A stretch of 64,000 nucleotides of DNA, taken from the NCBI RefSeq assembly GCF_037975245.1, contig NC_092565.1, positions 5,715,999-5,779,998 of the forward strand, given 5' to 3'. Both the position numbers and the translations under genes were made by a program. The notes beneath the pieces were generated by a model. That model was given only the letters and a program-made list of their open reading frames with translations. It made no database searches and was not told the DNA's origin. Positions 1 to 47,544 of this stretch are shown piece after piece. Every line of letters starts with the position of its first letter. Position 1 is the stretch's first letter. The DNA comes from Apostichopus japonicus (taxonomy: Eukaryota; Echinodermata; Holothuroidea; Aspidochirotida; Stichopodidae).

Positions 1-3000
1 GTTTAGAATGTTAAATGGAGATTTTCTTGATTGTTGACAGGGGACTGTTCTCCGAGTCAACAATACGCATGCGTCTTAATAAAAGCACTTACTTTCCTGA
101 ATGTACATGTATGTTATCGTCCAAACTAATGTTGTGTAAACAAAGACACTCATCTTCTCTAAGATGTGAACGCATACATGCGTCTACTGATATCAGACAT
201 TACTGCCAATTATTGTTGTGAACTCACAAGCCTTATTTCATTGGACAGCGAGTTCTTGTTACCTTACATATCAGGTACCATTTGACCTTTATATTTCAAT
301 GTCCAAAAATAAACAGCAGTAATGAAAGTTTGATACCGTAACCTTTTTGCCTGATCATTTTTTTCTTTTCCATCCTGTCTCTAGTCATTTCCGGGCAAAT
401 TGTTGGAGCGGTGCCAGCGGTGGTGCTCTTTTCAGAGTTTCATTAAACTACAGTTATCCTTATCATAAGCCTTTCCAGTCTACAACAGTCATTTTATATC
501 TAGTCAGGTTTAACCTTGAATAATCTAGGTCTATTATTTAGCCTTTTAGAGTGTATACGTATCTGGCATCCCCTAAACCATAATCTGACAGATCCAGTAA
601 AGCTCAAACAGCTCTGTTGATTTCTTCAATAGCTTTAAAATAAGGACTTAAAATATTAATAATCGATGAATTTCCGATGTCACGTCGGCTTTATCGATGG
701 TGAAGAAAGATGGCGCAGGTAGGAAAGGCAAATGTAATTCAAATGGAAGAACCTAGGTTTTGGATATAAAACGGGGTTGGGGAGAAGAGGAGGAGGAGGA
801 AAGGGGGGGGGGGGAATCCGGAAAAAAATCCAGAGCGGGGTGGGGGCAGGAAGCTTCGAGCTTGTGATAATCGGTTAACAGTTCATAGATTGGGTAAAAT
901 CAATTCCTGGCCAAAAATTAACCGCGTTTTGCCATCCACAGACTTGAACGTTTATCATGAAAGAGACCTTGTAAACATAACTGAAGAGAAAGTATAGTTA
1001 CCTACTGATGAAAAAAGCTGCCCTGTTGTTATTATATTATTTGGGAGGGGGGGGGGGGCTTTTCGATAAGATTTAGCAATAAATCCCATAACATTGTAGT
1101 GACTAGTCATGTTACATCTCAAATTAAGAAAAAGAAGAGAAATAAACAAGTTTTGGAAATGTCTCATTTTCATTTTTTAATAAAATTATGAAAAAAGAAA
1201 GGATACATATACCATGAATTCGTTAGTATATAATTTGAGTTACCATTCATAAGGTTACACCAATTAATGAAATGCATAATTAGTTTCATTAATTCCAGTC
1301 TTAGTGTGCATGAGTAACCATAATTTGGGAAGATAATTACCAGACGAAGTGATGTAACGAACTTAAAAAGTAAAATGGTTATTTATAACACTTACCTGAT
1401 GTGGATTTTACGAACTACAATCTCAGTACTAAAAAAAAAAGTTCGGAAAAAAAACAACTGGTTTTACCAGAGGGCGGTAGACAGGAATAGGTTGGTCACA
1501 GAGAGTGAATAGTTCTATTAAAGCTCACCAAGTGCTGTAGGGACGACTGGGCAGTTGTTGTGGATAGACAAAAATGCAGAAATTTTAATTCAACACAAAA
1601 CAGAACTCAACGATTGCATAATGTAAGGATATAAATTTATTTTTAAACATAATTTATAATATAACAATTTGAAGGAGATACTGCTGTGCACTAATTAACA
1701 GAAAGAACAGAGAAATTAAACAAGGTGCGACAACATTGCAAAGAAAACAGATCTATGATATATCTATTTTACATAACACGCAATGTGACAAAGCATATAT
1801 TATCAGCAATACTAAAATATAATAAATCACAAATGTAAAGCAGATAATCACCAACATCACACACACATACCAAAAAATCCAGAAAAAAACAAAAGAAATA
1901 TCAAACAAACAAACAAATCATAGCATACTTAAACTGACTTTCCCTTTGCGGGTTAAAAGCTGTACTTTGTGTCACAGATTTATTTCGCTCCTTGCTTACC
2001 TGTCTCAGTTCTACATTTGCACTCTCTCATCTACCTAAGACTACTAGAACCACAGACTAGTGTTTTTTATTATTCCATTGGTTTTTTTTTTCAATCTTTT
2101 GTGAAGCAAATCATCGGTATACTAACTTTGTGAGATTCTCTGTTTTTACTTAAACAATAATCCCGCTTTATGTTGGCAGTAACGAAGCTGGTATTAATTT
2201 CAATATAGTGAAAATGAGGGGCACAATGTCATGAAACAACGACTAAATTCATTCACAACTTTAAAGGATTCATTCAAAACTTGCCAAATAAAATAAAAAT
2301 ATAAACTGGGTCGGGGGGGGGGGTGGGGGGTGGAAAGATTTCCACGATAACTGTAGTAGGCACAAAGTCAATCATATTGATATATATATTTAATTCACAA
2401 GTGAGAAGATACGTTTCTTATTTGTAGGAATGGCTGCATATATGTTTGTATTACTGTATGTGTATCGCAGTCTATTGATACTTACACTATTGCTTCTTCT
2501 CTTTTTTTTCGTTTACGACCTGTGTAAACCGAATTTCGGAATGTGGACAATAAATTCAATTCAATTCATTCAACTTAAGAACCATTGCTATCTGTCCAGG
2601 TTGTACTTCTACAAAATGATTAATTATTGAAAAATGACCCCCCTTTAAATATCAGATGTACATCAATCAAAGTGGCTGGACTACCAAGTCTAGCATACAG
2701 ATCATTAGGTCAGCTCTTCAGAGCAATACCAAACTAAACAGGAAAAAAATAAAAGGAATTTTATTGACTCAAATAACATGGTAACCGATCAACACAGTAC
2801 TGTATATTGTGCCTCTTCACAAACTGAACATCTTAAAACAAAGCTGAATAAAATCTTGACTGAACACATTTTGTTTATTGAACAAAAAAGGAATGATTGA
2901 ATAATTGGTAAATATTGCTTTCAAAAACTTTAAATGACCTTTGACCTCCACCGACGCCAATAACAATTGCAAACAGGGAATGGAGCATCTACATACAGTA

Positions 3001-3253
3001 TGGGATTCATGTAAGGCTGACCTTACCCTGTTTTATTTGTTATTACCCGGTTTCATATGGCTTTTTTTTTTACCACAATGCTGACATTACATGAGCATTG
3101 GACCTTCACATTAACCCAAAATTTATTAAATCAACTTTCTTGAGTAAATTTTGATGAACAGCATCTAAACACTCTCTCAAATACTGAGGGGGGAGGGGGA
3201 AAGGGGGGAGGGTGGGGAAGGGGGTGATAAGGCACAACAATTGTATCTCAATG
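1..3253. other. 3' flank of LHPP, no gene seen
   Basis: No convincing coding exon in this stretch. It should contain the LHPP 3' untranslated region, read leftwards from 3253. Minus-strand AATAAA-type signals (TTTATT on the plus strand) occur near 2760, 2875 and 1628, but which one is used cannot be told. Two long G runs lie at 803-814 and 1047-1058. A retroposon-like tail is listed separately. Confidence 0.5.
2390..2570 (+). repeat. retroposon-like 3' tail ending in ATTCA repeats
   Basis: The stretch ends with AATAAATTCAATTCAATTC near 2550-2568, a short (ATTCA)n microsatellite. It follows a TTTCGGAATGTGGAC block. Such tails are typical of 3' ends of CR1/L2-like LINEs and the SINEs that use them. 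No coding part is visible, so the family is not resolved. Confidence 0.35.
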
Positions 3254-9200: not shown

Positions 9201-12200
9201 CACATACAGTAATACCTTATGAGACACGTTACATAATGTAATGTAATATGACTATGATGTGATGTGAAGTATTTCATGATAACACATGAAGTAAGTACCT
9301 TATGAGACAATCATAACACATACAGTATTACCATATGAGACATGTAACATAATGTGATGCAACATGACTATGACACATGATGTGATTTAAAGTTTATGTG
9401 ATAACACATACAGTCATACCTTATGAGACATGTAACATAATGTGATGCAACATGACTATGACACATGATGTGATTTAAAGTTTATGTGATAACACATACA
9501 GTCATACCTTATGAGACATGTAACATAATGTGATGCAACATGACTATGACACATGATGTGATTTAAAGTTTATGTGATAACACATACAGTCATACCTTAT
9601 GAGACATGTAACATAATGTGATGCAACATGACTATGACACATGATGTGATTTAAAGTTTATGTGATAACACATACAGTCATACCTTATGAGACATGTCAC
9701 ATAATGTGATGTAACATGACTATGACACATGATGTGATTTGAAGTTTATGTGATAACACATACGGTATTACCTTATGAGACATGTAACATAATGTGATGC
9801 TATATGACTATAATGCATGATGAGATGTGAGTATTACATGATCACACATGAAGTAGTACTTTATATGAAACATCATGTGATGTGAAGCATTGTGTGATAT
9901 CATACGACATAGCACCGTAGGTGATGTCTAACCTAGTGTGATGCAACATGATATCTGATGTGGTGAGAACAATATATAATTACTGTATGACATTTTGTCT
10001 GATGGGATGTATGACATGTGATATATCTTGTGATGTGAGATGCCATATTGTGACATGTTGTAACTAATCTGATCACAACAACATTCCCTTTCAGCTTCTT
10101 CTCAACAAAGGCTCTACAAGTTTGACTGCAACTTAAATTCTATCGGATGTTTACTAAGTGCTGTTGATCCACGATTTTAAGAGATTTAAGAGCAAAATTC
10201 ATGAACTACAAATGACCCATGTTCATAATAGCTACCAATGTTTTGCCCTCAGGAAGTTTGCTCCATATGCTACAACACGATTAAAACTTCAAAAGCAACC
10301 ATTTACTTCCCCAATCTTTGTGGAACATCTTAAACGCTGTCAATATAATTCTCAAACAGACATTGCAGTTTTTGTCCAATATTTGAGAGTAACGGAAGTT
10401 TTATGTTAAGCTAGAAGCTATAAATAGGAATGTGAAAGACAAAAACAGCTGTCTTTCTTCAAAAGTGTGAGGGTTGAAAAACCTGCCAGATCATACTGAA
10501 ACACTTTTGATGTCATTTATTTTGGGACGACTTTCTTCAGTACATTTTCTCTAGCACTACAAGACAATACTGGGCTATGTGTTTATTTTCTAGACCTGTT
10601 GCTGGGCGAAAAAGTGAAACTAAAAACTGGTCATTGGCTTAGTTTTACACAGATAGCATACTTTTTTTAATTAATTAATCTATATAATATCCACTCATTC
10701 ACTGTCATATTAATACTGGAACTACTATTCATGTTTGTTCACTTGACCACTGGTCAACTGTCACAACAAGTGTCACAACAACTGTCACAAATTTGTCACA
10801 GATAAGCAGAGTGACAGTAAACCATTTCTCACCCCACATCATTCAACACTCTCTCCTATTAAAAGTTCAAGGGCTCGTTCAATCAATGACACCAAACCTT
10901 TGCCCTACTATCCCCCAAAGCCTTTGCCCCTGGCCACCCTGGTAAGCTTCTACTCTGATATACTGAATTGCATTTTTTCTTGATCGCATTAGCTTTGTAG
11001 GGAATATCTCTTTTTAAAAACATTTCCAACACTGTCAGTAATAATTTGTATAACAGCTAATATCACAAGCAAAGCACAATTTAATTTTTATTTTTTTTTA
11101 TCATTTTCCTCTCACCTGAACTTTCCCGTTCTGACCTGGATACCCCGCATCCCACATTTCTGGGCACCTCCGACATCGTTGACTATATCGTCACCAATCA
11201 TAATTGCCTGAAGAAACGAGAAAGAGAGGGAAATGAAGGGGCAGGCTTGTCATGCTTGTGGTTACAGAATTATTAAGACAGCACGATATATTCTACGGTT
11301 CTAAGCATGGATCCTACTTTCAATTTATAACAGCAACATACATAAAAAATAAAGAAAGGAAAATATATTTCCTTGATATTTATGTGATTCCTCAAGGGAA
11401 TCAACGATAGAGAACAGTAAATTATTCAAATTTTTGTAGCATTTTAGTTGTACATAACTTTGCTTTACATAAAATGCTGATGATAGTATATTCTACATAA
11501 CAATGCAACTTTGCAGATTTGTGTAATGAGCATATTTTTATGGGTCGCTAAAAGATGATTTACTGAACGTTTAACATAATTTAAGCAGCTGTTATTTCGG
11601 CAACCCAAACATTTTGTGTGATTGTATAGGTATACAACTATATACCTTCACTAGTGTCAAGAAAATCTGAAAATTTTCAGAAAAACTGACTCAATTCTCA
11701 TATCAATCCATGCCATAGGGGGTGTGATAGAAATTGCAAAAATCTCTGTGGCAGGTTCTAGGATGTTTACAATGCATGTGATTATTTGATGATGAAAAGC
11801 AAACAGACTATCTCTTGGTCTTACATCTAAACAAGTATATTTAATTTGTAGAAATACCTACAGTATATGTACAAACTGGGAATACAGTAAACCGTACCAA
11901 ACCCTTTAGGCATATGTGGGACTGACTTTCCTCACCTTAGATGAATCTACGCCCATGTCTTTCAAGGCTGCCTGAAAGAAAGACGGCGAGGGCTTGCCAA
12001 CGATCTCTGCTTTACAATCAGCTGCATACTGAAACAAAGCAGTTACAAAAGAATACTAAAATATGTAAAAAGGGTTTGTTCAAACATAACACATGAAGAA
12101 TTCAACACAATGAACAAAAATAAAACAAAATAATATTGTATACATAATTCTGTTTGACAATACATTTGTATTGATACTGTACTGCATATTATGTCAATGT

Positions 12201-15200
12201 GAGCATTATGGTCATGGAGACATTTCTTGGCTCTGTCAGAAACCATGTCATGTCAATAAAAACCCCTCTTTTTTCAGGAAAGTGTACAACTCCCAGGAAA
12301 GAAAAAACAAACCAAACCAAACCAAACAACATCGCTTTCTCAGAAATTGTCTTACTTGATTAAATTGTGCTTTAATTTTGCAAATATGTAATAGCTGCTT
12401 TCAAAACAGAGGAATATAATGCCTACAAAGTGTTCTTATTCCTACAAAGTGTTGGCATTCCTAAAAAGTGTTGTCATTCCTAGAAAATGTTCTAATTCCT
12501 ACAAAGTGTTCTCATTCCTAGAAAGGCCTCTCATTCCCAGAAAGTGTTGTCATTCCTACAAAGTGTTCTCATTCCTAGGAAGTGTTGTCATTCCTCATAA
12601 GTGTTCTCATTCGCAGAAAGTGTTCTCATTCCTAGAGAGTGTTGTCATTCCCAGAAAGAGTTCTTATTCCTACATAGAGTTGTCATTCCTATAAAGTCCT
12701 CTCATTTCCAGAAAGTGTTCTCATTCCTACAAAGTGTTCTCATACCTACAAAGTGTTCTCATTACTAGAAAGTGACGTCATTCCTCGAAAACTGTTGTCA
12801 TTGCTCATAAGTGTTCTCATTCCTAATCTACAAAGCTCTTTACTTTTGTTTTTTTTAAAGTGATCTCATTCTTAAAGCTTATACTCTTAACTCTTACATT
12901 TATTCTATTTATTATTATTATTATTATTCATAAATCATAGTTTAGCTAAGCATTCCCATTCTCATTCAAAAATGCTGTCATTTTGGAAAGTTTTGAAACA
13001 GTACTGTACCACACTTTCATGAAGTAACATTAATATGGGAAATAAACATTTCATCTGAGCTCGTGCATTTGCTCATCTTCCAATATTAAAGTACTTTTTA
13101 ATTTTACTTTAACAACAGATATTTCATCGTCCATTTAATAGTCATGGAAGGCAAAGAGATTTCATCTCACATTTTTAAAAAAAATTAGACTCGAATCAAG
13201 AATTTGACACAACATTCATTGACAAAAAAAATACATAAACAGAAAGACAAAAAAACAGAGCTGAGCAGATGTTGATGAATTGAACACTATAGTTTCTGAG
13301 ACAATTCATCGTTAAAGGTTCCTCTAAAAGTTATGTCTGCAGCATGTTAAGTTATCATTACCAACTCCTTGTTGACATGACGATAATAGGACATTTTGTT
13401 TAAACATCCAAAATAATTTATTGTGTCTTATTTGTCATCTCCACGGTCACACTGCTGACGAATTTGAGGATATCATCTCAATTTAGGATTTCTTACTGGC
13501 CCAGCAGGAATTAACAAATATGAAAAACATATCCATGCCTGGATTTAGTTTATTTTGAGTTTTCCACATTAGTCAATCTTCTTTGTGACTCTCCCTCCCT
13601 TTGTTTTTCAAGAGACAACTTCAAACATTTCTGTTTGATTCCTAGTTTATTTTTTTTTCACTTGGTTTCCTTTATCTATTTCCTTCTTTGTAAAGCGCTT
13701 TGAAACACTGTATTAAGCGCTATATTAATGAAATTTATTATCATTATTATTATAATTAAGAAAGATACCCTGCTAAATATAATCCAGGTTGTGTACTCCC
13801 CTGTTGACACCAATCTTGAAGAGAACAGTGAATGAAACCAACAAACTCCCCGGTGCTCGAGAAACACATCCTGCGAGCAGCCCATGTAATCGCTAGGCAC
13901 ATACTGTACTCCCAACATAATGAATAGTAAATTTTCTTTTTTTTCCCCCAGCTGCCAGATGCTATAGACAGTTGACGTTTCAATGACATTTCGTTCATCG
14001 GGAAAATTGATCCAGAAAGTTCTGCTCCCCGAAGATAATTGTGACAGACGATCAATGAAGAAATTTATGACGTTTGCGACAATTTTTCGTTTTTCTACGA
14101 GTCAAACGCGTCGGATATTCTCAAGGACTTTTTTCTTCTGTCCCCGAGAGGGGAATCATACTTTCGCTTTTAATAGACTGTGGGAATGTTTCCATTTGCT
14201 AGTGTAACCGTTTTTGAAAGGACAACCACACATTCTGCTTTTTCTAAAATATTGTAGAAAAAACTTTCCACCCAACTATATAATATGAGTCTACATATTT
14301 GTTTTCTTTTTTTTCAACAGATATTGACTCGTATGTAAATATGTGAACAAAAATGCTTGAGGCTTAAGGCCAGAGACAGTCAGAAAACAGAGAAATTTAC
14401 ATAAATGCCAGACGCAAAAAAAAGTATCTATTATTAATTTAAGCAGATGTACTTTGAAGTATGTCAAGCTGGGTTTCGTAACGACCGACTCTTGATTCTG
14501 ATCAGTGATTGATAAAAAGAAAATATCAATACATATTAAAGTCATTGTATTTTGTGAAAAGATAAGTTGTAAACAGATTGCAAAAAGATAATTTAATGGA
14601 AAATAATTCAAATCACCCTCGACTGATTTAATCGTGAAACATGGGGAAAATCCCAATGAGGCATTCCTTACTTTTATGTTTCATAATAGACACCTGTACA
14701 AAAGACACCTCAGTGCTGTATTTCAATAAGGACAAAAATCAACAACATTGTATTGGGGAATAATAGATTTTAGAGAGGAATTTTATAAACTTTTTTTTAT
14801 ATCGAGGTATTGCAATGTGAAAAAAAAATGGGAAATCTTGAAAATAGGTTTAAGGAAAAATATAGTGTATCAGGATTCCACAAAATTATAGAAATAAATT
14901 GAAAAGCTGTTGTTTACAGCAAGACTTCTATTTTAGGATATTTATATCAAATTAAAGCTGCTAATCATTCTTTAATTTCTGATGATTTGCATATATTTGA
15001 GAATCCTTATTCCTGCCATAGTAGATAGTGGAAACCATCGGTCACTTAAAGCAGCATGCTGTGCTTTGCAACTTACTTCCTCTCACCATGTCGCTATTTG
15101 GAGTAGACACTGTCTTGTGTAAGGTTGTTGTATTTGAAATGTCACACAACGAATTAAAATTTATTTGTTGCTTTTCAGAACAAAAACTGACCATTTCGTC

Positions 15201-32539: not shown

Positions 32540-33475
32540 TTTATACTTCCACCTGCTTCAAAGAACAGAAAAGTAAAAGGCTCTGGTGGGGTCTTGAACT
32601 CATGACAGTGTGTTTGTCTGTCTCTCTTAGTGCAGAGCACTAACCACTGCGCCACAGCAACTGTTGAGAAATAATGCTCGTTTCTAATATTTCAACTTCA
32701 GAATGGATGGAGGAAATGGCAAAAGATCAAAATGTTCTCTGGGTTTTGAACTCATGACAGTGTGTTTGTCTGTCTCTCTCAGTCCAAAGCACTAACCACT
32801 GCGCCACAGCAACTGTTGAGAAATAATGCTCGTTTCTAATATTTCAACTTCAGAATGGATGGAGGAAATGGCAAAAGATCAAAATGTTCTCTGGGTTTTG
32901 AACTCATGACAGTGTGTTTGTCAGTCTCTCTCAGTCCAGAGCACTAACCACTGCGCCACAGCAACTGTTGAGAAATAATGCTCGTTTCTAATATTTCAAC
33001 CTCAGAATGGATGGAGGAAATTGCAAAAGATCAAAACGTTGTCTGGGGATCGAACTCATGACAGTGTGTTTGTCTGTCTCTCTCAGTCCAGAGCACTAAC
33101 CACTGCGCCACAGCAACTGTTGAGAAATAATGCTCGTTTCTAATATTTCAACCTCAGAATGGATGGAGGAAATTGCAAAAGATCAAAACGTTGTCTGGGG
33201 ATCGAACTCATGACAGTGTGTTTGTCTGTCTCTCTCAGTCCAGAGCACTAACCACTGCGCCACAGCAACTGTTGAGAAATAATGCTCGTTTCTAATATTT
33301 CAACCTCAGAATGGATGGAGGAAATTGCAAAAGATCAAAACGTTGTCTGGGGATCGAACTCATGACAGTGTGTTTGTCTGTCTCTCTCAGTCCAAAGCAC
33401 TAACCACTGCGCCACATCAACACTTGAGAAATAATGCTCGTTTCTAATATTTCAACCTCAGAATGGAAGTTTGGA
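32540..33475 (-). repeat. 152-bp tandem array of tRNA-like SINE heads
   Basis: The phrase TTGAGAAATAATGCTCG starts a unit at 32661, 32813, 32965, 33117, 33269 and 33421 (marker positions), exactly 152 bp apart. Partial units lie at both ends. On the minus strand each unit contains TGGCGCAGTGGTTAGTGC (A box) and GAGTTCGATCC (B box), about 50 bp apart, as in a tRNA-derived RNA polymerase III promoter. Units differ by few bases. No coding function. Confidence 0.9.
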
Positions 33476-33479
33476 ATTG

Positions 33480-35540
33480 GGTGTTGTGTGGGGGCGTGTA
33501 GGGCGGCAAAAAATCTGATTTATGAAAAAAATAGAAATCATATAGACAAAAAGCCTTTCTCGGTCAAATAATTACACGAAATTGGTGTACAACAAAGACA
33601 AGAGTGTCTTCTACTTCACGTCTAAGTTTAATGTCGATGGGTGTTTCAGAGAGGACAAGAGAGGGGCTGAAAAGAGGGGGTTTTCCAAATTGTGCACTTA
33701 TAAAGAACACGTATTTCTATCTTGTACTTTGGGACCACGTATCTCCCGAACGGAAGCAGATATGGACCTGGGAGTTGCAAATTTGGGCTCCTGAGCATCG
33801 ATTACTCCCGGTTACGTCATTTGGGCGAAATCGATTTGGGGTAAATTTTGGCAAACACAGGTTTGGAAAAAAACAGACAAAAATCAGGTTTTTTGCCTCC
33901 TACGCCCCCACACAACACCCAATTCCAAAATAAACTTCAGATTCGTAATCAGCGTGTCGCGAACTACCAGAAAAGATACACATTTATCGCTTTTGCGACA
34001 ACAATTTTTTTCACCTCGATCAAGAAAAATGAAGAGCGAAAAACTTTTACGACGAACAAAGGGCTTAAACCTTTTGTTGTCCCGAAAAGTTTTTCGCTTT
34101 TCTATTGTTCCTCTGAAGTTGCAAACAGAGCGAAAAAAGCCTTTCCCGGTCAGATAATTACACGAAATTGGTGTATAACAAAGACAAGGGTGTCTTCTAC
34201 TTCACGTCTAATTTTAATGTCGATGGGTGTTTCAGAGAGGACAAGAGAGGGGCTGAAAAGATGGGGTTTTCCAAATTGTGCACTTATAAAGAACACGTAT
34301 TTCTATCTTGTACTTTGGGACCACGTATCTCCCGAACGGAAGCAGATATGGACCTGGGAGTTGCAGATTTGGGCTCCTGAGCATCGATTACTCCCTATTA
34401 CGTCTTTTGGGCTAAATCTATTTTGGGTCAATTTTTATTTGCGCCAAAAATAGGTTTTTTGTCTGAAAAGTTAAAAAAGTACCTCTTTTTGGTACCCAAT
34501 TCCAAAATAAACTTCAGATTCGTAATCAGCGTGTCGCGAACTACCAGAAAAGATACACATTTATCGACTTTGCGACAACAATTTTTTTCACCTCAAACTT
34601 GAAAAAGTAAGACGGAAAAACTTTTACGACGAACAAAGGTTTAAAATCCTTTGTTGTCCCTCAAAGTTTTTCGCTTTTCTATTGTTCCTCTGAAAAGTTG
34701 CAAACTGAGCGAAATAAAAGGGCGCTCGACGCATCTTGCCAGTGATACGTGATTTCAAAGCAGTCAAATCAAACCTCTGTTTGTCATCTTGAGTTTAATC
34801 TTGACATTTAGGAATAAATGGGTCAAATTTTGGCAAAAATTTTGGCAAAAACTGCTTACGGTTTTTTTAGGTGAAAAAAACTTTTTGTCGCAAAGGCGAT
34901 AAATGTGTATCTTTTCTGGTAGTTCGCGACACGCTGATTACGAATCTGAAGTTTATTTTGGAATTGGGTGTTGTGTGTGGGCGTTGGTGGGAGGGGGAGA
35001 CAAAAAATCTGATTTATGAAGAAAATGGAAATCATATAGACAAAAAGCCTTTCTCGGTCAAATAATTACACGAAATTGGTGTATAACAAAGACAAGAGTG
35101 TCTTCTACTTCACGTTTAATTTTAATGTCGATGGGTGTTTCAGAGAGGACAAGAGAGGGGCTGAAAAGAGGGGGTTTTCCAAATTGTGCACTTATAAAGA
35201 ACACGTATTTCTATCTTGTACTTTGGGACCACGTATCTCCCGAACGGAAGCAGATATGGACCTGGGAGTTGCAGATTTGGGCTCCTGAGCATCGATTACT
35301 CCCTGTTACGTCTTTTGGGCTAAATCTATTTTGGGTCAATTTTTGGTCAGTTTTGGAAAAACTGCAAATCCGCTTCCCCCCCCCCTCACGCCCCCACAAA
35401 CCTTCTGTTGTCCCTAAAAGTTTTTCGGTCGTCTATTGTTCCTCTGAAGTTGCAAACTGAGCAAAAGAAGTGTCATTAGAGAGGACGCTCGAGGCATAAT
35501 GCCAGTGATACCTGATTTCAAAGTAGTCAAATCAAACCTA
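33480..35540. repeat. Composite repeat with three copies of a ~0.6-0.9-kb unit
   Basis: The block CCTTTCYCGGTCARATAATT starts near 33557, 34141 and 35050. It is followed each time by about 280 nearly identical bases. A second block, from CCAATTCCAAAATAAAC to a TTTGCGACAACA end, occurs directly at about 33918 and 34497 and inverted at 34880-34970. Two overlapping plus-strand frames are open across each copy, but they drift in step with the DNA. I do not see selection for a protein. Likely a mobile repeat of unknown class. Confidence 0.75.
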
Positions 35541-42200: not shown

Positions 42201-45200
42201 TATGCAACCCATTGTATCTAGTTGACATGATCTGGAAAGTATCATAGACTTGAGACTGACTGTTAGTAACATGAAAAAACCTGTTCTGATGGCAGAAAAT
42301 AGGGGAACAAATTTACATCCATCATAAACACAAAGTTTACAGAGAATTGCAAAGAGGAAGATAGAAGAAAATCCTACTCTTTTAGCAGTCTTCTTACATC
42401 CTCTCAAATCTCTGCAAGGGGGCTGTCAAGGTCACCCACCAATATGTTAGAGTTAAAGCATGATATGGAGGGGGGGGGGGTCACAGACTCACAGACAGAA
42501 TTATCGTTGTATATCCTGCTTAAAAACTTCTGTAATCAGTCGCCATAACCACCAATGACACACAAGTAGACAAGAGACTTTTATAGTTTAGTCCAGTATA
42601 AAGTACTCAGTGAGAACTGCACCTGCAACATTGCAGCAGTGTTGCACGAGCAAGAGAGGGTGCATGGAATTTATATTAATTCTCCTTAAAGCCTGCTGCA
42701 GGATTTAAGTACTTGTCGTTGCTATGCAATCTACTTAATCAAGTAGATTCTTTCATCATCGACCCAAATACCTACCTGATGTACGTAATACTCCAAGTCA
42801 CGTAACGCCAAAGTCTTATCTTCCAACGTGGATTCCGTACTGTTGTACGTTTGTATCAGCTTGGTCATGACCTCCAGGTCAGTCTCAACATGTAAATTCA
42901 TAGCCTCATAGTCTTTCTTCAAATCTTCAATGGATCGGAAACTTTCTCGCAATTTTTTCTTAGCCTGATGATCAGAAAATGAAAAAAGCAGCCCTTTTAA
43001 TCACAATCCGCAAATTTCCACCAGAACACCCACTTGGGGTGTTAATTATCGTAATAGTCTGCTTCATAGCAGGCTATTGCCAGTTAGTTTCTTAAAAAGA
43101 GAAACAACAACAACAAATATTCTGCATCAAAATGGACAAATGGACTGAATTTTGTTTCTAACATGATATGCTTAATGCATTTGCCACCAGAATCTCTATT
43201 TTTCCATTTGATATTAATAGTGTTTTCATTCCATTCCCATGCTACAATTACTTTTAAGCCATAAAGGGGCAGGTCCAAGCTATTGTATCCCTAGAAGCCA
43301 AATTTCAAACTTTACTGAAACACCCTAAATGTGGTGTCATGTTAAAGCTGAATTATTGAAGTTTCAGATTTTCATAATTTTTTTGAATTTTTTTACCTAT
43401 TCAAACAATTACAGCCAGCTAATTTGCATAAATTCAAATTGCAGTGTGACGTACGGGACATTTGGAATCCTATTTCACTGCCAGCAATATGAACTTATTG
43501 AATATAAGTTATGTGGGACATAATGCACCCTTCCTTCCAATAATTTTGACATATTATGTTTGGGGGTTCATCAATTAAATATGCTAATTAGCTAGTGTCC
43601 AAATACTGATGTCCCGTACGTCACAATTTTCAGCACTTTTTTCAAGTTTTGATATGGAGGAACAATTTTTTTTTTGTGATATTCTATAAAGTTCTAATTA
43701 AGAACATTGCTCAACAATATCCATCCCAAAAAAATTGAAATAATATTCACTGCAAATCTAATTATCAAATTTAAAAATGTGACGTACGGGACAAAATGTG
43801 ACGTACGGGACATAGTGTGGTGGAAACCCTGTATAATAAACATGCATGGGCTCCAATGGAGACCACTACTGGAAACCTTCCAATGCTTACAAGTTTATTT
43901 TGTTGAAAGCTGGTAGTTGCAACTTATAATCTCTGCATGCCTGAAGAGCACATCATGGCACCATATAAACTATTGACTGATGACCACCAACAGCCCGGGT
44001 GTTGTTTGACTATTGGGAAGTCAATTGTGCGTGTGGGGGATACAGAATCATCTACGATGCTATTCAACATTGACATTGAATGAGGACGACTTCAAGAATG
44101 TTGAGTTTGCATTTCAAAATTTCGTAGGCCTATTGTGAAGTGTGACTATGATAATGTGCAACTATGTTCTTGTTTCCTGAACTTAGATAGTTGACATTGA
44201 GATTTTTAGTTACAAGTGTAGAGTTTCGCTCGCCCAATTTTTGCATAGGACAATCACTCATGAGTTTGTTCAATAACCAGTATTAGGTCTATAGAGTTTT
44301 CTTTGTTGAACTATGTAGTTTCATAGATGGACATTACGTGGCATTACTGTGGACATTTTGGTATGTTTTGAATGGGATGGATCATATTTCAACTTCAGGG
44401 TCATTAGTGGGGAGTATGATACAGTGTTGTACAGTATACATACCAAAACAGTTTTGCACCAAAACTTTGCATCTTGAATCATTTGTGGTCTAACCAAGCA
44501 AGAATTGATGTTCTGATTATTTGGTCTGGTAACCAGTATTAGGTCTATAGAGTTTTCTTTGTTGTACTAGTTTCATAGATGGACATTACGTGGCATTACT
44601 GTGGACATTTTGGTATATTTTGAATGGGATGGATCATATTTCAACTTCAGGGTCAATAGTGGGGAGTATGATACAGTGTTGTACAGTATACATACCAAAA
44701 CAGTTTTGCACCAAAACTTTGCATCTTGAATCATTTGTGGATAACAAAGCAAGAATTGATGTTCTGACTATTTGGTCTGGTAACCAGTATTAGGTCTATA
44801 GAGTTTTCTTTGTTGTACTAGTTTCATAGATGGACATTACGTGGCATTACTGTGGACAGTTTGGTATATTTGAATGGGATGGATCATATTTCAACTTCAG
44901 GGTCAATAGTGGGGAGTATGATACAGTGTTATACAGTATACATACCAACACAGTTTTGCACCAAAACTTTGCATCTTGAATCATTTGTGGTCTAAAAAAG
45001 CTAGAATTGATGTTATGAGTATTTGATGTATGTGTAGAGTAGATTAATACTTTACGCATTCCATGTTTTATGTGGAATGATCTCACAAGTACAGTCACTG
45101 CTCTTTTCCATATCCCAGAAAGAAGGAAATATGGCATGAAATTACCAATGACATTGTTCTGGCATATCCAAATTAATGTTTTTATGTAGAAATCAGCTTG

Positions 45201-47544
45201 TTATGGTATATTCAGGAATAAAAATATGAGTTTATATAGTCAATTTGTATATGGACAAATTGTCCCGTACTTCACATGTCCCGTACGTCACAGGACAATT
45301 TTCATTTGTGTAACCACTCTACTGGAATGGCTTCATATTTTTTTCTAATATGTTACAGCTTAGCCCTTGGAAGGTTAGGCTATTCACTAGTTATAACAGC
45401 TTGATCACTGCCCTCCTAATTTCAGAGCGGTTTCAGCTTTGCTCTTTAGTAAAAAAAACACAAAATTCTCTGGTCCCGTACGTCACACTGTACATTAATT
45501 AAGATGGGACCTAATTAAAGCAAGTGTAGGAAATTTTCATGAGTTTGTAATAAAGTAGCAGCAATAACAAATATGAAAACCTGAAAAAGTTTCTGGAAAA
45601 TAGATTTTATATAACTTTTAGACAAATTTATGTCTCTGAAATGTCCCGTACGTCACAGTGCAAATAGCTTGGACCTGCCCTCAGATGGTGCAATCAATCA
45701 ATTACCATTCTAATTATTTAAATTACAATATGACAATATCCACAGAGATTCTCACTTAAATGCAGAAATCAGCTAGGCCTGCTATGAAGTCCTTGCAGGC
45801 TACAGTAAACTGCTGGTAATTCATTTGGAAAACAAACAACTTTTTAAGGAAGCAGGTATCTTGTGTTACAAACACTCAAAAAGATAATTAACTGCTTTAA
45901 ACTGCCAATAGTTTAAGTGTGTTCACGTCTTCTAAATTGAGGAGAAATTTTACACGAGCAGCATAAAACTGTGGCATTAGACTTACTGCCTCATCCTCGA
46001 CATCGTCTTTATTTGCTCTGAAGTGTTTCATAGCCTTCTTCAATTCCTCGTGAGTAAAATATTTTTCCTTTGCATGGACGATTCCTTCCTTGTCTCCTTC
46101 TTTCCAATATTTGAAAGTGTCTGATACTTCCTGATCAAGTCCTTCTTCACAATCAGCCTGCTTAACCTCCTCACTCTGATCCAGTTTTTCATCTTGTGAT
46201 TGTTCCTCCTGAGTGGTCTCATCTTCATCCAGTAGCTTAGCTTCTCTAACGCCAGTCGTTAAATCCATTCTTACGTGGAGTCCTGCTGGAATAGCTTGTC
46301 CTGTAGAGTTTGAAATAAAGAACACAAGTCTAGCCATTGTATATAATGTTTTGTTAAATCTAAATAAGTAAGCCATGTCATTCATTCAGTTTATCTCCAC
46401 ATGCTTGTTATGAAATCTGAATTAAACAAAAAAAATGTCTGTAACAGTAATGTTAGGAACTTGACCATATCCTGAAATATCTTAATATTGTGTAGGCCTA
46501 TATCCTTTGCAATAGTTGCTTTATATACACACATTAATGTTGTGAATAAGTCTGTTTTTTTTTTTGTAAACAGATAAGATGTAAAGTCACCCATTCTAGT
46601 GCCAGAGCATTCTCAGCTGGGTGGATGGCAGGGGAAAGGAGGGAGATGGGGGTAAGAGGAAAGGAGGAAGAGAGGACCTGTAGGGGAGTCAGGTTATTTC
46701 ATAGTAATGCCCCCATATCAGACACTGCAACTGGGTGTAAGAAATAGGATAAGCCTACATCATCTCATCTCAAATTATTTCAACTAAAATCTTAAACAGT
46801 ACATTAACCCAACCATCATTTTTAAGCATATATAACACAGATCTTTATGAAGAACAGCTATCCAACAGTGGAGAAACAGTCTTGTTCCATTTGGGAGATA
46901 TCCTAGACATTTAAAAGTTGTGTCTGGGAGCTCCTTTTTTTTTCTTATTATTTTCCTTATTATGTTTTTCTTCATATTTTCAAGGCAAGTAGAATGGTTG
47001 ACACCGACAGGAATGCCGTCATTACATAATGTAAAGAGCTTCAATACAGTAGCTAAGATTCAACATTTGCAATGCTGATTTCAATACAGAAAATAAACAT
47101 TGTAATATAAAGAAAAATGTAAAAAGGTGGAGCACATGTTATTTAATGATTTTTCATATCTAGATTTGAGTCTTGAACAGTCTTGCATTGTCAAGCAACA
47201 TGAAATTGATCTCCCAAATGGATATAAGATTTTCTTTAGCTGTTTAGGGAAGTTTTTAATGACAGTTTTCTCTATCACATAGATCAATAATGATGGTTAG
47301 GTTTGTGTCTCCTTTAAACTACTTTACCTCGTTTGACAACTTGCCACTCATTAGTTGGCTGGAAGATGTCAGTGATCACCTCATAATCCTCCTCCACCTC
47401 TGTCGATATTTCACCATCTTCTTCACTAGAGTCAACAACAATTATATCCGTTGATTCTTTGCCATGGACATTTATGTAGCAAGATATCAGGAACAGGATG
47501 AGGGTAGCAGAGTGAAACAGCGTTAGTTTCTTCTTCAAATCCAT
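39232..47544 (-). CDS. SIL1: SIL1: ER nucleotide-exchange factor for BiP, with one in-frame stop
   Basis: SIL1 releases ADP from the ER Hsp70 BiP (HSPA5). Seven coding exons on the minus strand: 47328-47544, 45987-46300, 42776-42964, 41476-41597, 40629-40896, 40314-40381 and 39232-39517. Phases join to 487 codons plus TGA, near the 461 aa of human SIL1. Residues 1-28 are a signal peptide (Lys-rich start, then LILFLISCYINVHG). The conserved block FQPTNEWQVV is followed by GQAIPAGLHVRMDL, then an acidic insert, then armadillo-like repeats (RSIEDLKKDYEAMNLHVETD, DLEYYVHQIDNAKDLATTGG, NPHVQVKAIDGGALQSL). All borders are GT-AG. Codon 327, in exon 5, is TAA where relatives have Tyr or a similar residue; everything else is intact. 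No KDEL-type end is seen (ends NILSHISS). An acceptor 11 nt upstream of the ATG implies a 5' non-coding exon. Confidence 0.92.
40758..40760 (-). other. SIL1: In-frame TAA in SIL1 exon 5
   Basis: On the minus strand exon 5 reads CGA ATG TTT CCG TAA GCC CAG CTG, with the surrounding residues LLRMFP and AQLKFLDLGGL matching the family. Only one base separates TAA from a Tyr codon. The frame after the stop continues unbroken through three exons, so the gene was functional very recently or still is in other alleles. A base-call error, a null allele and stop read-through are all possible. Confidence 0.85.
41716..42148. mobile_element. Penelope-like insertion with 13-bp target duplication
   Basis: CATGATTTATATG is duplicated at 41716-41728 and 42136-42148 in SIL1 intron 3. 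Between lie three copies of a unit containing ACTTACTTTTACNCATTCTC and GATCCTGCTAGGATC: two on the minus strand (41799-41838, 41976-42014) and one inverted on the plus strand (42082-42121). Penelope-like elements carry terminal repeats with hammerhead motifs and often occur as tandem or inverted fragments. No reverse transcriptase or endonuclease remains. Confidence 0.7.
41976..42014 (-). ncRNA. Hammerhead-ribozyme-like motif
   Basis: Minus strand: a GCCT stem-I arm, core CTGAAGA, stem II GATCC-TGCTA-GGATC, core GAAA, then TGTC and the closing AGGC arm. Order and core bases match a type I hammerhead with a very short stem III, as described for Penelope-like elements. The copy at 41799-41838 has one extra A after the core. 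The copy at 42082-42121 has a changed core base (CTAAAGA) and GCC at the cleavage triplet. Confidence 0.6.
43267..45680. mobile_element. 2.4-kb TIR transposon with subterminal 15-bp repeats, SIL1 intron 2
   Basis: Perfect 18-bp inverted ends, GGGCAGGTCCAAGCTATT (43267-43284) and its complement (45663-45680). Inside, the 15-mer TGTCCCGTACGTCAC or its complement occurs eight times. Left side: 43446 (minus), 43610 (plus), 43779 (minus) and 43798 (minus). Right side, all plus: 45261 and 45472 (one mismatch each), 45277 and 45642. This mirror arrangement near both ends looks like transposase-binding subterminal repeats. No transposase frame is seen and flanking bases show no clear target duplication. 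The superfamily is unknown to me. Confidence 0.82.
44275..45020. repeat. ~253-bp tandem triplication inside the TIR element
   Basis: AACCAGTATTAGGTCTATAG starts units at 44275, 44531 and 44782 (spacing 256 and 251). Units include a GGACATTACGTGGCATTACT block and a TTTTGCACCAAAACTTTGC block and are over 90 percent alike by eye. It occupies the centre of the 43267-45680 element. Confidence 0.9.

Follow-up and report, generated by a model that had tools for sequence, protein, structure and literature searches.

The window, which is the whole 64-kb stretch of DNA that was analysed, holds a non-autonomous element of 2,414 bp that is bounded by terminal inverted repeats (TIRs) and carries eight copies of a 15-bp motif, TGTCCCGTACGTCAC. 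The SIL1 label of the surrounding gene is supported by one neighbouring frame, whose match to Fes1 (PF08609) is sub-threshold (E=0.001, 20.5 bits against a cut-off of 22.3). The features of the element are given below, where sites 1 to 8 are the copies of the motif and TSD stands for target-site duplication.

43263..43266, no strand: left flank AAAG at the expected 4-bp TSD, non-matching (flank comparison)
43267..45680, no strand: whole non-autonomous element (TIR pair and 14 other full-length matches in its own genome, 93-96%, among the scored candidates)
43267..43284, + strand: left TIR, GGGCAGGTCCAAGCTATT, complementary to the right TIR at 18/18 positions
43446..43460, - strand: site 1, in the same place in 31/31 copies
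43610..43624, + strand: site 2, opposite in orientation to the rest of the left side, an orientation also preserved in a sister copy
43779..43793, - strand: site 3, outer half of the left doublet (15-mer scan)
43798..43812, - strand: site 4, inner half of the left doublet, 19-bp step (15-mer and tandem-repeat scans)
44274..45025, + strand: 252-bp tandem array, three copies (tandem-repeat scan)
45261..45275, + strand: site 5, in which the window copy has a single private mismatch, at a CpG (15-mer scan)
45277..45291, + strand: site 6, forming the right-side doublet with site 5, 16-bp step (15-mer and tandem-repeat scans)
45472..45486, + strand: site 7, family form GGTCCCGTACGTCAC (15-mer scan and family copies)
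45642..45656, + strand: site 8, 24 bp inside the right end (15-mer scan and family copies)
45663..45680, - strand: right TIR, complementary to the left TIR at 18/18 positions
45681..45684, no strand: right flank TCAG at the expected 4-bp TSD, non-matching (flank comparison)

The termini of the element read GGGCAGG..CCTGCCC, giving GGG..CCC tips, and with up to three mismatches allowed no TIR was found in the 64-kb window beyond the element's own pair. All eight occurrences of the motif in the window (two or fewer mismatches; 0.03 expected, and 0/100 shuffles reaching eight) fall inside the element, six of them exact and those at 45261 and 45472 with one mismatch each. Three of the four sites on the left are reversed and all four on the right are forward. 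Moving inwards on both sides (43446-43812 and 45261-45656) the order is single, single, doublet, the steps measuring 164-195 bp and 16-19 bp; the spacing of the array is near a nucleosome repeat. The longest stop-to-stop frame within the element is 117 aa, and a Pfam scan of two frames inside it returned nothing above cut-off. The initial annotation had described eight motifs between perfect 18-bp inverted ends, mostly reversed on the left and all forward on the right, in an element without a transposase, and this description is confirmed; the three-copy 252-bp array and the missing TSD match at the window copy were absent from it. Other tandem arrays are present in the window at 32596-33467 (152 bp x5.7), 12422-12825 (19 bp x21.2) and 9313-9826 (88 bp x5.8), and at 33535-35460 there are three near-identical open-frame segments (..VSERTREGLKR.GFPNCALIKNTYFYLVLWDHVSPERKQ..), which look like a dispersed or tandem repeat.

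Copies, ends and target sites

The element is a copy of a young, recently active and abundant non-autonomous cut-and-paste family. A DNA search of its own genome (671.6 Mb, 35 contigs) found 161 candidates; the 40 that were scored gave at least 68 matching stretches, and 15 of these, the window copy included, cover positions 1-2414 in full. Divergence between nearest copies among those aligned is as low as 0.07%. Copy lengths range from 2168 bp (L026) to 2975 bp (L023) and fall into classes about 250 bp apart, as if the 252-bp array were variable in the family, and this tandem array is probably the source of the length differences between family members.

With respect to the motif, the initial annotation had asked whether the 15-mer might be a scattered repeat unrelated to the ends. 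Genome-wide there are 213 occurrences of the TIR 14-mer and 662 of the 15-mer, against 0 for each reversed control. When the first 100 listed of the 662 sites were compared by eye with the family ends, written as GGGCAGGTCCAAGC, 83 were found between two exact ends, seven in copy L038, one end of which has a mismatch, and ten about 4 kb or less inward of a lone exact end. All 100 are thus inward of family ends, and on these sites the idea of a scattered repeat is rejected.

For the pairing of ends, 95/95 of the left type and 100/108 of the right type were taken, 10/213 being of neither type. A script that paired adjacent inward-facing ends returned 78 pairs (43 right-left, 30 left-right, 5 right-right and 0 left-left), of which 74 measure between 1,770 and 3,425 bp, and 39 ends remained unpaired. 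One of the five right-right pairs, L029, was read, and at its left end the TIR is followed by T. An alternative context for the 14-mer was ruled out, a non-T base following it at 0 sites. L044 and L049 look like truncated family ends. L048, which carries an end-like 15-mer, has at 1288-1301 (C8:17276651) an exact TIR 14-mer that may be chance or belong to another element; about 5 kb read on its inner side showed no motif and no family sequence. Among viral contigs the 18-mer end matched 0 stretches. A full-text literature search did not find the whole motif or end, the nearest trace being a 12-base substring that appears once in a paper on grass potassium channels; the family may still be named in Repbase or Dfam.

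The initial annotation had also proposed that copies be collected, that their target duplications be defined and that a larger copy with an open reading frame between the same ends be found, and all three were achieved. The window copy and 30 fetched copies form the sample; their 4-bp flanks are identical in 29/31, the exceptions being the window copy (AAAG/TCAG) and L029 (TATA/TTAC); and a 13,166-bp copy with an 817-aa ORF is described below. Of three older copies, L056 has a matching TSD and L055 and L057 match at 3/4 bases. The 29 TSDs comprise 22 different 4-mers, with a preference for T or A in the first position and A in the last, and weak symmetrical preferences outside. Judged by its 18-bp TIRs and fixed 4-bp TSD, the family is a class II TIR cut-and-paste transposon. 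The TTAA duplication of piggyBac and Kolobok is absent among the 29 TSDs, which rules out both, and Ginger is ruled out by its 5'-TG..CA-3' termini, which are GGG..CCC here.

Conservation and variation of the array

The eight sites are present in 31/31 copies at near-constant offsets and orientations, with site 2 the one turned the other way. Of the copies read later, L055 has eight sites within one mismatch and L056 and L057 have seven within two, and there is one extra site in the right end of L047.

How this constancy is maintained can be approached through the variants that the copies carry. Variant columns were drawn from 30 aligned copies (L029 was omitted for its inserts), a variant being shared when present in two or more copies and private when present in one, and motif columns were compared with the other subterminal columns. 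Shared variants occur in 0/120 motif columns against 81/909 other subterminal columns (Fisher p=4.2e-5), whereas private variants are not depleted, at 12/120 against 122/909 (p=0.39), and the shared-versus-private contrast between motif and other columns gives p=0.004; these p-values are only guides, because the copies share ancestry and the columns are not independent. In the TIRs shared variants occur in 2/36 columns. The absence of shared variants from the motif, together with undepleted private ones, implies that mutations strike after insertion and that copies with a mutated motif have no descendants among those aligned. On this pattern the motif is seen to be filtered at transposition, and since variants would be filtered when copies jump and not afterwards, the array appears to be required for transposition.

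A diverged sister copy keeps the sites. This copy, C9:36915942-36917895 (1,954 bp, flanks without a TSD match), is 63% identical to the family outside the motifs (558/885) and 87.5% within them (105/120; p=1.8e-8), with 33/36 in the TIRs. The order and orientation of its sites are those of the family, two being exact and six differing at one to four bases. Further sister copies were recovered by searching the own genome (40 scored of 137 candidates), and in eight sister stretches (L058-L065) none of the frames of at least 90 aa looked by eye like the 817-aa protein. One of these, L059, has TTTT on both flanks, a low-complexity match. Beside a sister-family end in L065, at 2583-3161 (-), is a 193-aa frame that by eye is like a hAT dimerisation region, and L063 carries much the same frame of 110-124 aa, by eye retrotransposon-like, twice (2-331 and 1734-2105) beside sister-family fragments.

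The sites are also rich in CpG. The eight sites hold 16/28 of the consensus CpGs, and outside the motifs the observed/expected ratio of CpG drops to 0.18, where the window as a whole has 0.57. Of the 12 private mutations in the motifs, nine are CpG transitions, and private CpG mutations are similarly frequent in the motifs (10/960 letters) and outside (8/684). Because CpGs are concentrated in the sites and near-absent elsewhere, and private motif mutations are mostly CpG transitions, one may entertain, as a doubtful proposal, an animal transposon that is CACTA-like, has a terminus type of its own and is gated by methylation. If true, the transposase would read the array only when it is unmethylated, and methylation would silence a new copy and later destroy its docking sites.

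The 13,166-bp relative and the candidate transposase

The largest end pair, G000:C14:11920628-11933793, spans 13,166 bp between TACA/TACA flanks. Compared with the window copy, its ends are 95.7% (280 bp) and 95.5% (221 bp) identical. Motifs lie at 24 and 194 bp from one of the ends, and at the other they start at position 180; where the copy was read, its sites are placed as in the gene-less copies. This copy was read at both ends and through 6,001 bp (L066, 1.27-7.27 kb from one end), 6,664 bp being unread. L066 contains no sequence of the gene-less element, no sister sequence and no motif, and it holds an open frame of 817 aa. Preceding and overlapping this in another frame is a 120-aa frame that looks like C2H2 zinc fingers, its C2H2 Pfam matches being sub-threshold (best E=0.0025). 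Because the zinc-finger-like part is in a different frame from the 817-aa ORF, the copy may be broken or spliced, the change reflecting a splice, a frameshift in the copy or an assembly error.

DUF4218 is a domain linked with CACTA transposases. The 817-aa frame matches it with E=0.07 and 13.4 bits over its whole length and with E=0.0085 and 16.4 bits as a fragment, under the cut-off of 27; Transposase_21 was not among the matches listed. The frame (P0001) contains, in order, the words QDAFEIVNPLG, SGDNLGSH, CRYC, HHYLLH and RYESKH, and candidate residues picked out by eye are D272, D363, C384-x2-C387, H594-x3-H598 and E618. The excerpted text of PMC12730594 gives the pattern of the CMCT clade as D-D-C(2)C-H(3-4)H-E, with the C/H pairs between the second D and the E, and by eye the residue order of the frame appears to fit. 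Together, the by-eye residues and the match to DUF4218, itself sub-threshold, speak for a CACTA/CMC-like transposase. Membership of the family in the CMCT clade is likely: the 4-bp TSD lies within the 2-5 bp of CMC/CACTA and the by-eye residues fit, but the GGGCAGG..CCTGCCC termini differ from the 5'-CA..TG-3' that the published description gives for most cases, and the Pfam cut-offs are not reached. A single-sequence AlphaFold model of the protein was unusable (mean pLDDT 35.6), no relatives were confirmed in viral contigs, genome contigs or phages, and in a comparison with PDB sequences the single match (E=0.24) was at chance level. The long copies L029, L041 and L067 were rejected as autonomous candidates, as they carry unrelated inserts and a transposase was not recognised in them.

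What, then, moves the gene-less copies? The explanation we favour, and consider probable, is a recently active non-autonomous family, probably of CMC type, mobilised in trans through its subterminal arrays by the transposase of longer relatives. The transposase of such relatives, for instance the 13,166-bp element, would act on copies without a gene. The eight 15-bp sites would be bound by a CMC/CACTA-like protein whose N-terminal part is zinc-finger-like, or by a partner protein belonging to the element, and protein on the two mirrored arrays would bring the ends of the element together. The transposase would then cut at the GGG..CCC tips, with insertion into AT-rich sites. The initial annotation's view of a transposon with a mirrored subterminal array is supported by the fixed arrays, ends and TSDs, protein binding being a proposal.

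The sites could instead be bound by a host factor, such as a TGACG/CRE-half-site binder, serving germline transcription or nuclear positioning. The motif does contain TGACG, and the filtering test would come out the same for any protein needed in transposition. An end-recognition array, however, better explains a long conserved word that is mirrored at the two ends and whose exceptional orientation at site 2 is itself conserved; no gene for transcription is recognisable in the non-autonomous copies, and the 100 listed of the 662 genomic 15-mers are all inward of family ends, making a host factor improbable. We infer that the 817-aa ORF is the family's own transposase, with candidate catalytic residues as above. 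The gene could be a nested guest, since the gene-bearing copy is a single one, 6,664 bp of the 13,166 bp are unread and other long copies are insert-enlarged; the ORF would then come from an unrelated element within a gene-less copy, and the true transposase would be elsewhere or extinct. In keeping with this, unrelated inserts, with no transposase recognised in them, account for the size of three other long copies (5,447, 6,452 and 6,582 bp), and family sequence could resume in the two unread parts of the 13,166-bp copy, 11920908-11921899 and 11927901-11933572. Nesting is nonetheless judged rather unlikely, for the 6,001 bp run without family or sister sequence or motif, whereas the insert-bearing copies that were read resume family sequence, and the protein has a DDE-like residue pattern and a zinc-finger-like N-terminal part. 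The TACA/TACA TSD around the whole copy is compatible with an own gene and a nested gene alike.

There is also the matter of superfamily. A Sola transposase is of DDD type. An AcademX transposase is accompanied by an XPG-type nuclease, and no helicase or nuclease was among the matches listed in the Pfam scan of the two ORFs of the 13,166-bp copy. The ORF between the ends is CMC-like by eye, with its weak DUF4218 match, and a Sola- or AcademX-type transposon is therefore very unlikely, even if TSD length would suit either, at 4 bp for Sola (excerpts of PMC10741241 and PMC3627910) and 3-4 bp for AcademX (excerpt of PMC10045372).

Comparison with known transposons

Should the gene be confirmed, a GGG..CCC terminus and a 4-bp TSD would be tied to a CMC-like, zinc-finger-bearing protein, and gene-less families with such ends would therefore become classifiable. 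With its young copies and a gene-bearing relative, the system lends itself to testing.

Subterminal repeats have a role at the transposon end in Hermes, and hAT elements, of which it is one, make 8-bp TSDs. The TSD here is 4 bp and the 817-aa protein has no BED or hAT Pfam match. The likeness lies in how the end may be held, as in Hermes it is contacted through several zinc-finger BED domains (PMC10368747, in excerpt) and here a zinc-finger-like part is predicted.

The closer parallel is with the plant CACTA elements En/Spm of maize and Tgm of soybean, which in the excerpted account of PMC2613891 have, as does this family, short TIRs and subterminal arrays of a repeated motif. There the motif measures 12 bp in En-1 and 17-20 bp in Tgm and its copies run in both direct and inverted order, and in En/Spm the subterminal repeats are recognised by the element protein TNPA and are cis-determinants of excision (PMC2613891, same excerpt). 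The transposase of those elements is of DDE type, as given in that excerpt, and the residues seen by eye here form a DDE-like pattern. By analogy the family may work like a CACTA element. It differs in its termini, GGG..CCC instead of CACTA, in its TSD of 4 bp, where Tgmt* has 3 bp (PMC2613891), and in its motif, eight-site layout and animal host, and its DDE-like region comes after a zinc-finger-like sequence. For the plant CACTA elements the subterminal arrays have been studied in depth; in this family it is comparative data alone that indicate that the array is required for transposition.
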